Positions 17,002 to 28,334 of a stretch of DNA of 64,000 bases are shown in pieces. The stretch's first letter is position 1, and each line of letters begins with the position of its first letter. Position numbers and translations under genes: made by a program. The DNA is from Pseudooctadecabacter jejudonensis (lineage in GTDB: Bacteria; Pseudomonadota; Alphaproteobacteria; Rhodobacterales; Rhodobacteraceae), in NCBI RefSeq assembly GCF_900172275.1, contig NZ_FWFT01000001.1, positions 744,001 through 808,000 of the forward strand, in the 5' to 3' direction. The notes below the pieces were generated by a model, which saw only the letters and a program-made list of their open reading frames with translations, made no database searches and was not told the origin of the DNA.

Positions 17002-17496
17002 TTATGAGAGGTGTTTGTGCATGATATAGGCGTCAACCCGCCCCAAATCGGGGTGGCGGAACACCTGGGGCAGCGTGCCAATGGTCGCAAAGCCCAGCCT
17101 GCGCCACAGCGCGACCGCCCGCGTGTTGGACGCCAGCACCAGATTGAATTGCATGGCGTCAAAGCCCAGATCGCGGGCGGCCGTTAGGGAATGGGTGCAC
17201 ATGGCTGTCGCCACCCCCTGCCCTGCCGCCGCAGCCGCGGTGATATAGCCGCAATTGCAGATGTGGTCTGCATGGCCAGAAAAGTTGGCCTTTATATAGT
17301 AGGTGCCCAACAGGCCATTTGGCCCATCGGCCACAAAGCACGCCGCTGGCCCGTCAAACCACAGCGCGCGGGCGGCGTCTTCGGTGATATCTGTGGCCAC
17401 CGCATAGGTGTCGCCTGCACGAAACACCGGTTCGATCATCGCCCAGATCGCAGGCCAATCGGACGGCGCGGCCGGGCGGATGGTGATCCTGCTCAC
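17002..17496 (-). CDS. GNAT family N-acetyltransferase
   Basis: A 164-residue single-domain GNAT protein expected to transfer acetyl from acetyl-CoA to an amine. It opens with [14 protein letters not shown]. The acetyl-CoA-binding motif A is [12 protein letters not shown], matching the Q/RxxGxG/A pattern, and the C-terminal [21 protein letters not shown] is the usual motif B. Its ATG overlaps the stop of the Mrp gene by 4 bp, so it is probably co-transcribed. The substrate cannot be predicted. Confidence 0.88.
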
Positions 17497-18593
17497 CCCA
17501 TGCCGCCGTCGATAAGGCGCTTGGCAAGTGTGGCATAGGCCTCGGCCATGGGGCTGTCGCCTGCCGCGATGGGCGTGCCGGCATCCCCCGCCAGCCGGGT
17601 GTCCAGATCAATGGGAAGTTGCCCCAAGAACGGAACACCGATCGCCTCAGCCTCAGCGGCGACGCCGCCGTGCCCGAAGATGTGTTCCTCATGCCCGCAT
17701 TTGGGGCACACATAGGTCGACATATTTTCAATCAGCCCCAGAATTGGCGTTTTCAGGGTGCCGAACATGTCCAGCGCCTTGCGCGCATCCAACAAGGCCA
17801 CGTCCTGCGGCGTGCTGACCACAATCGATCCCGTCAAATGGGTTTTCTGGCAAAGTGTCAGCTGCACATCACCAGTGCCGGGCGGCAGATCGACCAACAG
17901 CACGTCAAGCTCCCCCCATTCCACCTGCGTCAACATCTGCTGCAACGCGCCCATCAACATCGGCCCGCGCCAAACAACGGCCTTGGCCGGATCCACCATC
18001 AGACCAATGGACATCATCGTCACGCCGTGGGCCTGCAATGGAATAATCGTCTTTCCGTCAGGCGACCCGGGCCGCGTGTTCACACCCATCATGCGCGGCT
18101 GGCTCGGCCCGTAGATATCGGCATCCAGCAAACCAACGCGCCGTCCCTGCCGCGCCAAGGCCACGGCGAGGTTTGACGACACGGTGGATTTGCCAACGCC
18201 GCCCTTGCCGGACCCAATCGCAATGATCCTGTCCACTCCCGGCACGCCCTCTGGCCCCGCCTGCGGCGTGGGATGACGACCGATCGTCAGATTTGGCGGT
18301 GTTTTGTCGGCGGGCGCGGCAGGCTGCTTGGCCGCCCCGCCTTGGGGCGCGTGGGCCGTCAGCACCACGGACACGGACGCCACACCATCCATCTTTTGCA
18401 CGATCATCTCAGCCGCTTGGCGAATAGGCTCCATCCGGCTGGCTGTGGCGGCATCGGGCGCTTCGATCACGAATCTGATCTGATCCCCATTCACCGACAA
18501 GGCGCGGATCATATCCCGCGAGACCAAATCCCCACCATCGGGCAGCCCAATGGTGCCCAAAGCCGCCAAAATTGTCTCTTTTGTCTGTGTCAT
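17493..18593 (-). CDS. Iron-sulfur cluster carrier protein, Mrp/NBP35 (ApbC) family
   Basis: A 366-residue P-loop ATPase that carries or assembles Fe-S clusters in the cytoplasm. An N-terminal DUF59/MIP18-like domain (residues about 1-85) is followed by a low-complexity linker and the ATPase domain with the deviant Walker [18 protein letters not shown], the [16 protein letters not shown] switch, and [16 protein letters not shown]. The cluster-binding pair C-x-x-C is in [15 protein letters not shown] chose the ATG at 18593 (AGGGA upstream) over a longer frame. It overlaps the GNAT gene downstream. Confidence 0.94.
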
Positions 18594-18894
18594 ATCCCTG
18601 TGCCCCGCCGCCGGTGATCTTCCGTCTTTTCGCCTATGGTGTTCATAAACCGCCCAGAAAGCAGACAACAGGCCTCATTGCATGCCAATCAAGTAATCTT
18701 CCCTAGGGTCAAGCCAACCCAAGGGACAAAACTCTGGGTTTTCAAGTCATTAACCATGCACTTTCTGCATAGCAGCATTGCCAGACCCGGTATTGTGCAT
18801 CCGCAGCAAAGCCTTAAATCTTGTCTCGAAGGCGCAATACGGCGCCGCAACCCGAGACCCCAGAATTGGGTCGCAACATGAAAGAGCCCTAGTA
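18594..18894. promoter_or_regulatory. Divergent intergenic region between mrp and the DUF1127 gene
   Basis: This 301-bp gap must hold the promoters of both genes. An inverted pair AACCCA/TGGGTT lies at 18716-18740, and an ATGCAC/GTGCAT pair further right. DUF1127-CcsR loci in Rhodobacter are driven by heat-shock-type sigma factors (RpoHI/RpoHII), but I could not place a confident -35/-10 pair by eye. Confidence 0.35.
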
Positions 18895-19107
18895 ATGGCA
18901 TATGTAACTGACACACGTACCGGTGGTTTTTCCATCTTCGCCCGTATCGCCGAATGGCGCGACACTGCCGCCAAATCCCGTGCGCAGCGCGAAAAGTACC
19001 TTGAGACGAAAAAAGAATTGAACCGTTTGTCCCGTCGTGAGTTGGCAGACATCGGTATCACGGTCGGCGACATTGAGCGCATCGCGCTTGAGGCAGCCAA
19101 AGGCTGA
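18895..19107 (+). CDS. DUF1127 small arginine-rich protein (CcaF1-like)
   Basis: A 70-residue basic protein ending in the DUF1127 motif, LNRLSRRELADIGITVGDIE followed by RIALEAAKG. DUF1127 proteins of this kind bind RNA: in Rhodobacter sphaeroides CcaF1 is encoded directly before the CcsR sRNAs and affects their maturation and RNA turnover. Here the gene is likewise followed within 13 bp by an array of CUCCUCCC hairpins, so I infer the same role. The start ATG at 18895 has AAAGAG about 9 bp upstream. Confidence 0.9.
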   Translation: MAYVTDTRTGGFSIFARIAEWRDTAAKSRAQREKYLETKKELNRLSRRELADIGITVGDIERIALEAAKG

Positions 19108-19119
19108 TCCGACCAGCAA

Positions 19120-19158
19120 GATCGGGGCGTCTCCTCCTCCCTTTGACGTCCCGTGATC
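19120..19158 (+). ncRNA. CcsR-like stress sRNA hairpin 1
   Basis: A hairpin whose loop carries TCCTCCTCCC. The stem pairs GGGGCGTC (19124-19131) with GACGTCCC (19145-19152) including one G-T pair, and an outer GATC/GATC segment extends it to 19120-19158. It starts 13 bp after the DUF1127 stop. The loop sequence is anti-Shine-Dalgarno-like, as in the CcsR/cuckoo RNA family. Confidence 0.85.
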
Positions 19159-19196
19159 GCGCCCCAGCCCTCTCCTCCTCCCTGGGTGACGGGCGC
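19159..19196 (+). ncRNA. CcsR-like stress sRNA hairpin 2
   Basis: The second array element. GCGCCC (19159-19164) pairs with GGGCGC (19191-19196), an internal loop follows, then CCC (19168-19170) pairs with GGG (19184-19186). The apical loop TCTCCTCCTCCCT displays the CUCCUCCC motif. It directly abuts the first hairpin. Confidence 0.85.
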
Positions 19197-19199
19197 ATT

Positions 19200-19251
19200 G
19201 ATCAAGACGCGGCGGTGTCTCTCCTCCTCCCTGACACCGCCGCACTTGATC
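19200..19251 (+). ncRNA. CcsR-like stress sRNA hairpin 3
   Basis: The best formed element. A perfect 11-bp stem GCGGCGGTGTC/GACACCGCCGC (19209-19219 and 19233-19243) is extended by an outer GATCAAG/CTTGATC stem (19200-19206 and 19245-19251). The loop reads TCTCCTCCTCCCT and contains the CUCCUCCC motif. Confidence 0.88.
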
Positions 19252-19265
19252 ACAGAATACCAAGT

Positions 19266-19283
19266 CCCCGACCTCCCACGGGG
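19266..19283 (+). ncRNA. Degenerate CcsR-like hairpin
   Basis: A short CCCCG/CGGGG stem (19266-19270 and 19279-19283) encloses ACCTCCCA, a shortened form of the CUCCUCCC loop. It lies between the third and fourth complete elements and may be a decayed array member or a spacer structure. Confidence 0.5.
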
Positions 19284-19293
19284 CACAACGTTG

Positions 19294-19334
19294 AACGGCG
19301 AAACCCACCTCCTCCCTTGGGTTTCGCCGTTTTT
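19294..19334 (+). ncRNA. CcsR-like sRNA hairpin 4, also the array terminator
   Basis: The stem CGGCGAAACCC (19296-19306) pairs with GGGTTTCGCCG (19319-19329) around a loop containing CCTCCTCCC. It is followed by TTTTT (19330-19334), so this element doubles as an intrinsic terminator that ends the DUF1127-CcsR transcript 39 bp before the MFS gene. Confidence 0.87.
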
Positions 19335-24834: not shown

Positions 24835-24869
24835 CAGTTGCGACATTTTCGACATAAATGCCGCAACTG
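24835..24869 (+). promoter_or_regulatory. Interrupted inverted repeat in the pyc leader
   Basis: CAGTTGCG-A-CATTT (24835-24848) and AAATG-C-CGCAACTG (24856-24869) pair with one mismatch around a 7-nt centre. It ends 21 bp before the pyc start codon, so it could be an operator or an mRNA structure near the ribosome-binding region. No named regulator can be assigned. Confidence 0.5.
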
Positions 24870-24890
24870 CACAATCAGGGGGGCCGCATC

Positions 24891-27800
24891 ATGGCTGACT
24901 TCACCAAAATCCTCATCGCAAATCGTGGCGAAATCGCCATCCGCATCATGCGGGCCGCCAACGAGATGGGGAAAAAGACAGTCGCCGTGTTCGCAGAGGA
25001 AGACAAACTCGGCCTGCACCGTTTCAAAGCGGATGAGGCCTACCGCATCGGCGAAGGCCTCGGCCCCGTCGCCGCCTACCTCAGCATTGATGAAATGATC
25101 CGCGTCGCCAAGGACTGCGGCGCTGACGCCATTCACCCAGGGTACGGGCTGCTGTCTGAAAACCCGGATTTCGTCGACGCCTGCGCGGCAAACGGCATCA
25201 AATTCATTGGGCCCAAGGCCGAAACCATGCGCGCCTTGGGCGACAAGGCCAGCGCGCGCAAGGTCGCCATCGCAGCCGGCGTGCCCGTCATTCCCGCCAC
25301 CGAAGTGCTGGGCGATGACATGGCCGCCATCAAGAAAGAGGCCGCAGAGATCGGCTATCCCCTGATGCTCAAGGCGTCGTGGGGCGGTGGTGGTCGCGGC
25401 ATGCGCCCCATCATGTCCGAGGACGAGCTTGAGGAAAAAGTCCTCGAAGGCCGCCGTGAGGCCGAGGCCGCCTTTGGCAACGGCGAAGGCTATCTGGAAA
25501 AGATGATCATGCGCGCCCGCCACGTTGAGGTGCAGATCTTGGGCGACAGCGACGGCCGCATCTATCATCTGTGGGAACGCGATTGCTCAGTCCAGCGCCG
25601 CAACCAAAAGGTCATCGAACGCGCCCCTGCGCCCTACCTCAGCGGCACCCAGCGCGAACAGCTTTGCAACTTGGGCAAAAAGATCTGCGAACACGTGAAT
25701 TACGAATGCGCAGGCACCGTCGAATTCCTGATGGATATGGACAGCGGCGAATTCTACTTCATCGAAGTGAACCCGCGCGTGCAGGTCGAACACACTGTGA
25801 CGGAAGAAGTCACCGGCATTGACATCGTGCAGGCCCAGATCAAGATTGCTGAGGGCAAATCCCTGATGGAGGCCACGGGCTGCGCATCACAATATGACGT
25901 CAAACTCGACGGCCACGCCTTGCAAACCCGCGTGACCACCGAAGACCCCTCCAACAACTTCATCCCTGACTACGGCCGCATCCAGACCTACCGCAGCGCC
26001 ACCGGCATGGGCATCCGTCTGGACGGCGGCACCGCCTATTCGGGTGCTGTCATCACCCGCTATTACGACAGCCTTCTCAGCAAGGTGACCGCTTGGGCCC
26101 CCACGCCTGAAGCCGCGATTGCGCGAATGGACCGCGCCTTGCGCGAATTCCGTATTCGCGGTGTCAGCACCAACATCGCCTTTGTGGAAAACCTGCTGAA
26201 ACACCCGACGTTTCTGAACTATGAATACCACACCAAGTTCATCGATGAGACGCCGGAGCTGTTTGATTTCAAAAAGCGCCGCGACCGTGCCACGAAAATC
26301 CTGACCTATATTGCGGACATCACCGTCAACGGGCACCCCGAAACCCAAGGCCGCGCAAAACCGGGGGCCGAGGCCATCGCCCCGCGTGCCCCCGCCCCGC
26401 GCGTGGAAGACCCAAAACCCGGCACCCGTCAGATCCTCGATCAATTCGGGCCGGAGGCCGTGGCAGACTGGATGCGCGACCAGACACAACTTCTGATCAC
26501 TGACACGACCATGCGCGATGGGCACCAATCCTTGTTGGCCACCCGCATGCGCTCCATCGATATGATCCGCGTGGCGCCGACCTATGCGGCCAATATGGAC
26601 AAACTGTTCTCCGTGGAATGTTGGGGCGGTGCGACGTTCGATGTGGCCTACCGGTTCTTGCAGGAATGCCCCTGGCAGCGCCTGCGCGATATCCGCGCGA
26701 AGATGCCGAACATCATGACGCAAATGCTGCTGCGCGCGTCCAACGGCGTGGGCTATACAAACTATCCCGACAATGTGGTGCAGGAATTTGTCCGTCAGGC
26801 CGCTGTGTCCGGCGTTGACGTCTTCCGCGTGTTTGACAGCCTCAACTGGGTGGAAAACATGCGCGTCGCCATGGATGCCGTGATCAAGGCCGAAAAGGTC
26901 TGCGAAGGTACGATCTGTTACACGGGCGACATCAACGACCCGGACCGATCCAAGTACAACGTCAAATACTACGTCGGCATGGCAAAAGAGCTTGAGGCCG
27001 CAGGCGCCCACGTTCTGGGCCTCAAAGACATGGCCGGCCTGCTAAAACCCGCCGCGGCCACGCAATTGGTCAAAGCGTTGAAAGAAGAAGTCGGCCTGCC
27101 CATCCACTTCCACACCCACGACACCTCAGGGGCTGCAATCGCCACTGTGCTGGCGGCGTCCAACGCCGGTGTCGATGTAGTCGATGCGGCCATGGATGCG
27201 CTCAGCGGCAACACCTCCCAGCCGACGTTGGGGTCAATTGTTGAGGCCCTCAAACACACCGACCGCGATACGGGCCTTGATGTGGGCGCGATCCGCGAAA
27301 TCTCCAACTACTGGGAAACGGTACGGGCGCACTACGCAGCGTTTGAAAGCGGCCTGCAGGCGCCTGCGTCCGAGGTGTATTTGCACGAGATGCCAGGCGG
27401 CCAGTTCACCAACCTCAAGGCGCAAGCGCGGTCCCTGGGTCTGGAAGAACGCTGGCACGAGGTCGCCCAGACCTATGCCGACGTGAACCAGATGTTTGGC
27501 GATATCGTAAAGGTCACGCCGTCCTCCAAGGTGGTGGGTGACATGGCGCTGATGATGGTCAGCCAGAACCTGACACGGGCGGACGTGGAAGACCCCAAGA
27601 CCGACGTCAGCTTCCCTGATTCAGTGGTCGACATGATGCGCGGCAATCTGGGCCAGCCTCCCGGTGGCTTCCCCAAAGGCATCGTCAAGAAGGTGCTGAA
27701 AGGCGAAAAGCCCAACACCGACCGCCCCGGCGCGTCCCTGCCGCCGGTTGATCTGGATGAGGTCCGCGCAGACCTCACCGCAAAGCTGGACGGCGTGGAC

Positions 27801-28334
27801 TTCGACGATGAAGATCTGAACGGCTACCTGATGTACCCCAAGGTGTATCTGGATTACGCCCAGCGCCACGACACCTACGGCCCCGTGCGCACCCTGCCCA
27901 CACGGACATTCTTTTACGGCATGGAACCGGGCGAAGAGATCACCGCCGAAATTGATCCCGGCAAGACCCTCGAAATCCGGATGCAGGCCGTGGCCGAAAC
28001 CAACGAAGAAGGCGAAGTCAAAGTCTTCTTTGAACTCAACGGCCAACCCCGCACAATCCGCGTGCCCAACCGCATGGTCACAGCCAACACGGTCCAGCGC
28101 CCCAAGGCCGAAGCGGGCAACGACAACCACATCGGCGCGCCGATGCCGGGGGTCGTGGCCTCTGTGGCGGCCACCGTGGGAGCAAAGGTCAAGGAAGGCG
28201 ATTTGTTGCTGACCATCGAAGCCATGAAAATGGAAACGGGCATCCACGCCGAACGCGACGCGACCGTCAAGGCTGTGCATGTCACGGCCGGTGGCCAAAT
28301 CGACGCAAAGGATCTGCTGATCGAACTGGACTAA
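24891..28334 (+). CDS. pyc: Pyruvate carboxylase
   Basis: A 1147-residue biotin enzyme that carboxylates pyruvate to oxaloacetate, feeding the TCA cycle. An N-terminal biotin carboxylase domain (ILIANRGEIAIRIMRAANEM, KASWGGGGRGMR, ERDCSVQRRNQKVIE, FIEVNPRVQVEHTVTE) is followed by the carboxyltransferase domain (TDTTMRDGHQSLLATRMR near residue 540, HFHTHDTSG) and a C-terminal biotinyl domain (IEAMKMETGIHA). The single-chain form and length match alpha4-type PYC. I start at ATG 24891, the usual MADFTKILIAN beginning, with a run of G about 10 bp upstream. Confidence 0.97.
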   Translation: MADFTKILIANRGEIAIRIMRAANEMGKKTVAVFAEEDKLGLHRFKADEAYRIGEGLGPVAAYLSIDEMIRVAKDCGADAIHPGYGLLSENPDFVDACAANGIKFIGPKAETMRALGDKASARKVAIAAGVPVIPATEVLGDDMAAIKKEAAEIGYPLMLKASWGGGGRGMRPIMSEDELEEKVLEGRREAEAAFGNGEGYLEKMIMRARHVEVQILGDSDGRIYHLWERDCSVQRRNQKVIERAPAPYLSGTQREQLCNLGKKICEHVNYECAGTVEFLMDMDSGEFYFIEVNPRVQVEHTVTEEVTGIDIVQAQIKIAEGKSLMEATGCASQYDVKLDGHALQTRVTTEDPSNNFIPDYGRIQTYRSATGMGIRLDGGTAYSGAVITRYYDSLLSKVTAWAPTPEAAIARMDRALREFRIRGVSTNIAFVENLLKHPTFLNYEYHTKFIDETPELFDFKKRRDRATKILTYIADITVNGHPETQGRAKPGAEAIAPRAPAPRVEDPKPGTRQILDQFGPEAVADWMRDQTQLLITDTTMRDGHQSLLATRMRSIDMIRVAPTYAANMDKLFSVECWGGATFDVAYRFLQECPWQRLRDIRAKMPNIMTQMLLRASNGVGYTNYPDNVVQEFVRQAAVSGVDVFRVFDSLNWVENMRVAMDAVIKAEKVCEGTICYTGDINDPDRSKYNVKYYVGMAKELEAAGAHVLGLKDMAGLLKPAAATQLVKALKEEVGLPIHFHTHDTSGAAIATVLAASNAGVDVVDAAMDALSGNTSQPTLGSIVEALKHTDRDTGLDVGAIREISNYWETVRAHYAAFESGLQAPASEVYLHEMPGGQFTNLKAQARSLGLEERWHEVAQTYADVNQMFGDIVKVTPSSKVVGDMALMMVSQNLTRADVEDPKTDVSFPDSVVDMMRGNLGQPPGGFPKGIVKKVLKGEKPNTDRPGASLPPVDLDEVRADLTAKLDGVDFDDEDLNGYLMYPKVYLDYAQRHDTYGPVRTLPTRTFFYGMEPGEEITAEIDPGKTLEIRMQAVAETNEEGEVKVFFELNGQPRTIRVPNRMVTANTVQRPKAEAGNDNHIGAPMPGVVASVAATVGAKVKEGDLLLTIEAMKMETGIHAERDATVKAVHVTAGGQIDAKDLLIELD

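Follow-up and report, generated by a model that had tools for sequence, protein, structure and literature searches.

The ccaF1-like gene and its hairpin array

The window, by which we mean the whole 64,000-nt stretch of DNA that was analysed, holds a ccaF1-like gene directly followed on the same strand by five hairpins and preceded by two operator-like sites and a putative RpoH-like promoter (Table 1). An earlier note on this DNA had described the DUF1127 gene, four hairpins with CUCCUCC(C) loops and one short hairpin, and had taken the last hairpin, with its T run, as the end of the array. Its coordinates and count were right: the gene product matched PF06568, all five hairpins folded, H1, H2, H3 and H5 carry CCUCCUCCC loops and the short H4 a CCUCCC loop, and H5 is the terminator.

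Table 1. Features of the ccaF1-like locus, in positions of the window
Feature	Position	Strand	Remarks
Distal operator-like site, TTTCTGC-ATA-GCAGCATTG	18762..18780	+	core CTGCATAGCAG at 18765-18775
Proximal operator-like site, TTGTGCATCCGCAGCA (also written TTGTGCANNYGCAGCA)	18793..18808	+	overlaps putative -35 and spacer
Putative RpoH-like promoter	18793..18819	+	-35 TTG 18793-18795; -10 CTTAAAT 18813-18819
ccaF1-like gene, 70-aa DUF1127 protein	18895..19107	+	PF06568, 32 bits (cut-off 23.3 bits), E 1e-7
H1	19123..19153	+	loop UCCUCCUCCCUUU; z -2.9; positional orthologues in genus
H2	19159..19196	+	loop UCUCCUCCUCCCU; z -3.3
H3	19199..19252	+	loop UCUCCUCCUCCCU; z -9.7; stem nearly invariant in genus
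H4 (short)	19264..19286	+	loop ACCUCCCA; z -2.0; degenerate fifth unit of the earlier note
H5, intrinsic terminator	19293..19332, with T run to 19336	+	loop CCUCCUCCCU; z -7.4

As a whole, the 236-nt array folded at -109.7 kcal/mol, compared with -70.1 in shuffled sequences (z = -8.4, 0/200), and its minimum-energy structure leaves all five loops single-stranded. Judged by fold z alone, H3 and H5 lie far beyond chance and H1, H2 and H4 are modest, so that support for the latter comes from the comparative data. The window contains 13 copies of the motif CTCCTCC against a shuffle mean of 6.1 (13 reached in 0/100 shuffles), and seven of these copies fall inside 185 bases of the array. A strand test based on G-U pairs and fold energy found both strands alike, without strand preference; the direction of the array (+) is therefore given by the terminator, the gene and the promoter. 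A CsrA sponge on the opposite strand, with GGAGG loops, was also considered and set aside; the T run after H5 is present only on the + strand.

On these sequence features, the array belongs, as an Octadecabacter member, to the CcaF1-CcsR (cuckoo, CIN1) family, an array type already known, and the CcaF1-CcsR architecture recognized in the earlier note was right. We took the family definition from papers citing the primary ones: a DUF1127 gene directly upstream of the array and on its strand, two or more hairpins whose loops are of the CCUCCUCCC type (here H1, H2, H3 and H5), stems that vary within the array while the loops are kept, and a terminator at the array end (here H5 and its T run), each of which was found in the window. 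In the covariance-model search that the earlier note had suggested, the Rfam models CcsR1 (RF02791; 42 bits, E 8e-9) and ar14 (RF02344; 48.5 bits, E 1e-7) both matched, but with scores under their gathering cut-offs of 65.3 and 58.8, which are database thresholds and not biological definitions. Matches to CcsR1 at E 0.001 were found in 121 of 150 family genomes, nearly all from different genera, and only 8 of the 150 reached the cut-off; the CcsR1 model is therefore narrow, missing most of the family at its cut-off. The 88 named loci among the matches listed carry arrays of 2 to 17 hairpins, some of them cut by the end of the contig sequence. One locus titled Exiguobacterium profundum (L111, CP059262.1) has a ccaF1 of the Rhodobacteraceae type followed by eight hairpins, and its title looks mislabelled. 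The H3-type pattern also matched MAGs labelled Thermoflexia, Immundisolibacterales and Actinomycetota (L072, L079 and L083), where no DUF1127 gene was found upstream of the pattern; these matches may reflect chance or contamination, or may be unrelated.

The start region of ccaF1 contains neither AGGAG nor GGAGG in any of the 88 named loci among the matches listed, its Shine-Dalgarno being GAGG-like, as compared with 10% (AGGAG) and 6% (GGAGG) of other long ORFs, for which the start calls are rough. Because these motifs are missing from its start region, ccaF1 may be spared by its own anti-Shine-Dalgarno RNAs. Two inverted repeats lie in the presumed 5' UTR of ccaF1, at 18831-18846 (GGCGC-AATACG-GCGCC) and 18854-18873 (GACCC...GGGTC), and are apparently conserved across Octadecabacter with both arms changing. 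A divergent gene for an Mrp/ApbC-type P-loop ATPase (17493-18590, minus strand) adjoins ccaF1, and similar proteins are encoded divergently to ccaF1 in other genera (L272, L274, L289 and L290).

Conservation and turnover of the hairpins

H1 to H5 are positional hairpins common to the Octadecabacter genomes, with the exception of L017, where the array stops after H3 and the later hairpins are missing. The earlier note had staked its reading beforehand on compensatory stem changes among related genomes, and these were found. H3, whose sequence is almost invariant across the genus, has five pairs (14 cells) changed on both sides with 97% of cells paired, and H5 has six such pairs with 99.3% of cells paired. 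H4, with CCUCCC invariant in 13 distinct rows, has 16 compensatory cells and a covariation score of 0.509, compared with 0.258 when shuffled. The changed-pair counts of H3 and H5 and the score of H4 were each reached in 0/500 shuffles, counts that are not to be read as probabilities in alignments that are small and made of related rows.

The claim that the stems have diverged while the loops are kept holds within an array, where the stems are unrelated and the inner arms are about as similar as random pairs (3.77 versus 3.49 of 8), but not between species, where the stems are conserved and H3 is nearly invariant. The near-invariance of the H3 stem across the genus was missed by the earlier note, as were the PhaR-type operators upstream.

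The same note had taken the fifth unit, H4, for a decayed one and had seen in it a sign of changing copy number. Changes in copy number were indeed observed, but they proceed by duplication and not through a decayed unit: H4 is duplicated intact in one genome (L194, G006), and an apparent H1-H3 block is doubled in two loci that have eight hairpins (L195 and L196). By sequence comparison, then, the copy number of the array turns over inside the genus, by duplication of H4 or of the apparent H1-H3 block, and in L017 by loss of what follows H3. H4 is a positional orthologue throughout the sampled Octadecabacter loci and absent only from L017, its assignment in the eight-hairpin arrays of L195 and L196 resting on order and on its place before the terminator. 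Since its place, its invariant CCUCCC and the compensatory changes in its stem are kept, H4 is maintained, with a shorter loop.

That H4 is instead a degenerating unit that the array is losing is scarcely credible to us: it has a shortened loop, and no hairpin of the array in the window is weaker, but its place, its CCUCCC loop and its covarying stem persist in 13 distinct rows, and it was duplicated intact in G006. It is likewise very improbable that the hairpins do no more than terminate transcription strongly and stabilise the 3' end of the DUF1127 mRNA, with loops that have no targets in trans. H5 is a good intrinsic terminator, as such a role would have it, but stabilisation does not require one and the same loop, and CCUCCUCCC stands in 671 of the 774 hairpin loops of the 88 named loci among the matches listed; the CcsR RNAs of R. 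sphaeroides, moreover, are described as processed and as targeting flhR (PMC8307010). The view of the earlier note that selection acts on the anti-Shine-Dalgarno loop was judged right.

Operator-like sites upstream and the distribution of phaR

Aligning the region upstream of ccaF1 across Octadecabacter revealed two blocks conserved above the level of the rest of the promoter region. The core of the distal block fits exactly the site CTGCNNNGCAG that PMC12542648 gives for R. sphaeroides PhaR, the regulator that senses the carbon-storage polymer PHB, and 61 of the 84 named ccaF1-array loci among the matches listed have a distal site with at most two mismatches to TGCTGCATRGCAGCATTG. The proximal site is without mismatch in 73 of these 84 loci and has at most one in 81, compared with mostly 4-6 mismatches in shuffled upstream sequence. 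Of 73 loci in which the spacing was compared, again among the matches listed, 72 have the two sites 30-31 bp apart. With one additional spacer base, the proximal site resembles the PhaR site of S. meliloti mmgR, TTGTGCACCGCAGCA; its spacer has four bases and those of published PhaR sites three. An RpoH-like promoter, for which the earlier note had suggested a search, is apparent family-wide as TTGTGC-N14-CCnCATnT in the logo of 81 aligned loci among the matches listed, where the GCAGCA half of the operator falls within the spacer. In the window itself the TTG and the spacing fit RpoH, but the -10 CTTAAAT is a poor match. Two loci (L285 and L286) have DUF1127 genes with both operator sites and no anti-Shine-Dalgarno hairpins downstream; because they keep the sites without hairpins, they suggest that the operator belongs to the DUF1127 gene rather than to the array.

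A relaxed operator pattern (at most two mismatches) gave no excess in the window's own genome, with 44 and 38 matches versus 50 and 42 for the reversed control, so only exact or near-exact sites were used. The exact motif ATTGTGCANNNGCAGCAWT matched 45 times in 101 family genomes and its reversed pattern not once. Among the 36 matches inspected, 30 were linked to DUF1127 genes or arrays, including four (L255, L262, L266 and L274) that were counted on the basis of hairpins and a distal site, the gene having been missed by the search motif. The remaining 9 of the 45 lie close upstream of CcsR1 matches. The six other sites inspected stand at phaC/phaZ (in the window's own genome), a thiolase, a PHB-depolymerase-type esterase, a patatin, an HpcH/DUF1611 pair and a pyruvate carboxylase, the last named by its likeness to the pyruvate carboxylase of the window. 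The pyruvate carboxylase, and perhaps the patatin and the HpcH/DUF1611 pair, belong to central or uncertain carbon metabolism and are not PHB genes proper. A prediction that six unclassified motif hits would prove to be PHB genes failed, five being DUF1127 promoters and one a pyruvate carboxylase.

The window's genome encodes phaR (C5:847808-847990, 99.2 bits), and phaR, a phasin gene and the phaC/phaZ site are no more than 3 kb from one another. In most Octadecabacter phasin promoters, fetched independently, CTTGAA is flanked by a pair of TGCTGC-N3-GCAGCA palindromes. A copy of the proximal operator with one mismatch (24859-24874, minus strand) lies just upstream of the pyruvate carboxylase gene of the window (24891-28334, plus strand), and in another genus (L288) an exact site precedes a pyruvate carboxylase; this pattern of sites makes the pyruvate carboxylase gene a possible additional target of PhaR.

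We then compared genomes with and without phaR, which is absent from 9 of 398 family genomes (completeness at least 95). Six of these nine, from four genera, keep a CcaF1-type gene, with clear arrays of 4-10 hairpins in four (L022, L291, L294 and L295), two hairpins in L292 and a locus broken by N runs in L293. The proximal site is gone from all six, the best match having four or five mismatches; in five of them the left half can still be recognised as a TTGTG- or TGTGC-like remnant, and GCAGCA is lost. Among phaR-containing genomes with an array, the proximal site has at most one mismatch in 28 of 31, the exceptions being G025 and L186, in which it is lost and the distal site kept, and L179, with two mismatches. 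The association between phaR and the proximal site gives a Fisher p of ~4e-5, or 3e-4 by genus, values that ignore kinship and rest on six phaR-less genomes. This joint loss of site and regulator gene is the best evidence that PhaR would read the proximal site.

It is conceivable, if unlikely, that the array belongs to the CcsR family and that some regulator different from PhaR binds the conserved sites upstream of it, or that the proximal site is an extended RpoH-type promoter. The proximal site does overlap the -35, its four-base spacer is unlike the published PhaR consensus, and CcsR of R. sphaeroides is described as dependent on RpoHI/RpoHII (PMC10253847). However, the GCAGCA half is invariant although its place is the spacer and not a promoter hexamer, and it is this half that the phaR-less genomes lose, whereas the ATTGTG part is still recognisable in five of the six. 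The distal site, furthermore, equals the published R. sphaeroides PhaR consensus, and the exact motif also stands at phaC/phaZ and other PHB-type genes.

Proposed regulation and comparison with known systems

We consider it probable that the locus is a CcaF1-CcsR member with a five-hairpin 3' UTR, whose RpoH-like promoter is repressed by PhaR through two operators. There is, in our judgement, an equally good chance that across Rhodobacteraceae the PhaR regulon includes the CcaF1-CcsR operon as a core and direct member, PHB accumulation de-repressing the sRNAs together with the RNA-binding protein. One predicted transcript, made from the RpoH-like stress promoter with a sigma factor of the RpoH type as the stress input, would carry the coding sequence of the DUF1127 RNA-binding protein and the five anti-Shine-Dalgarno hairpins in its 3' UTR. 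PhaR, most likely, would repress it from a pair of operators with a spacing of 30-31 bp, the distal one lying upstream of the -35 and the proximal one over the -35 and the spacer. In the published model, PHB accumulation draws PhaR from DNA onto granules (PMC12542648); here, PHB build-up would thus free the promoter and de-repress ccaF1 and the array, such that sRNA levels would increase under stress in cells with stored carbon. By analogy with R. sphaeroides, from which the steps after transcription are carried over, hairpin sRNAs would be cut out of the transcript by RNase E, the DUF1127 protein (CcaF1) having a part in their maturation, and their open CCUCC(UCC)C loops would base-pair with ribosome-binding sites of the GGAGG type and so block mRNAs with strong Shine-Dalgarno sequences.

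If this is true, carbon storage would be tied to post-transcriptional control and stress, PhaR would gain a post-transcriptional arm, as it does by MmgR in Sinorhizobium, and a reason would be suggested for an acetyl-CoA-linked target such as pyruvate dehydrogenase. We found no report of a PhaR link to CcsR or DUF1127 genes in a literature search that left subscription papers and regulon databases outside; the link appears to be a new point, and prior notice of it is possible. The R. sphaeroides papers, in the excerpts available, describe RpoHI/RpoHII control and do not mention control by PhaR.

Earlier work has treated the CcsR RNAs and CcaF1 as stress RNAs acting on C1 metabolism, pyruvate dehydrogenase and photosynthesis genes. 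The CcaF1-CcsR1-4 locus of R. sphaeroides shares with the window a DUF1127 gene of ~70 aa followed by co-oriented anti-Shine-Dalgarno hairpins, a terminator at the array end and, putatively, an RpoH-like promoter, but it comprises four two-hairpin RNAs, whereas the window has five hairpins, one of them with a single CCUCCC, along with a CcsR1 score below the cut-off and a weak -10. A locus of another genome (L041, G154) has four tandem CcsR1 matches of up to 104 bits and a proximal operator without mismatch. The cuckoo/CIN1 RNAs (SmelA075 and SmelA099; RF02344 ar14) resemble the array in having several CCUCCUCCC-loop hairpins on unrelated stems, loops that have been interpreted as anti-Shine-Dalgarno (PMC3927594). 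They are described as having 2-4 hairpins, with helices lacking conservation (PMC4504443), compared with five hairpins in the window and an H3 sequence conserved within the genus.

On the regulatory side, PhaR-controlled phasin promoters likewise have two PhaR palindromes flanking the -35 (PMC12542648 and the Octadecabacter phasins), but these lie ~26 bp apart, as against 30-31 bp at the window array, and published PhaR sites differ from its proximal site, which has a four-base spacer and a TTGTGC left half. The closest parallel to the proposed control is S. meliloti mmgR, an sRNA gene that PhaR represses through a closely similar site (PMC12542648), although MmgR is an RNA unrelated to the hairpins of the window.
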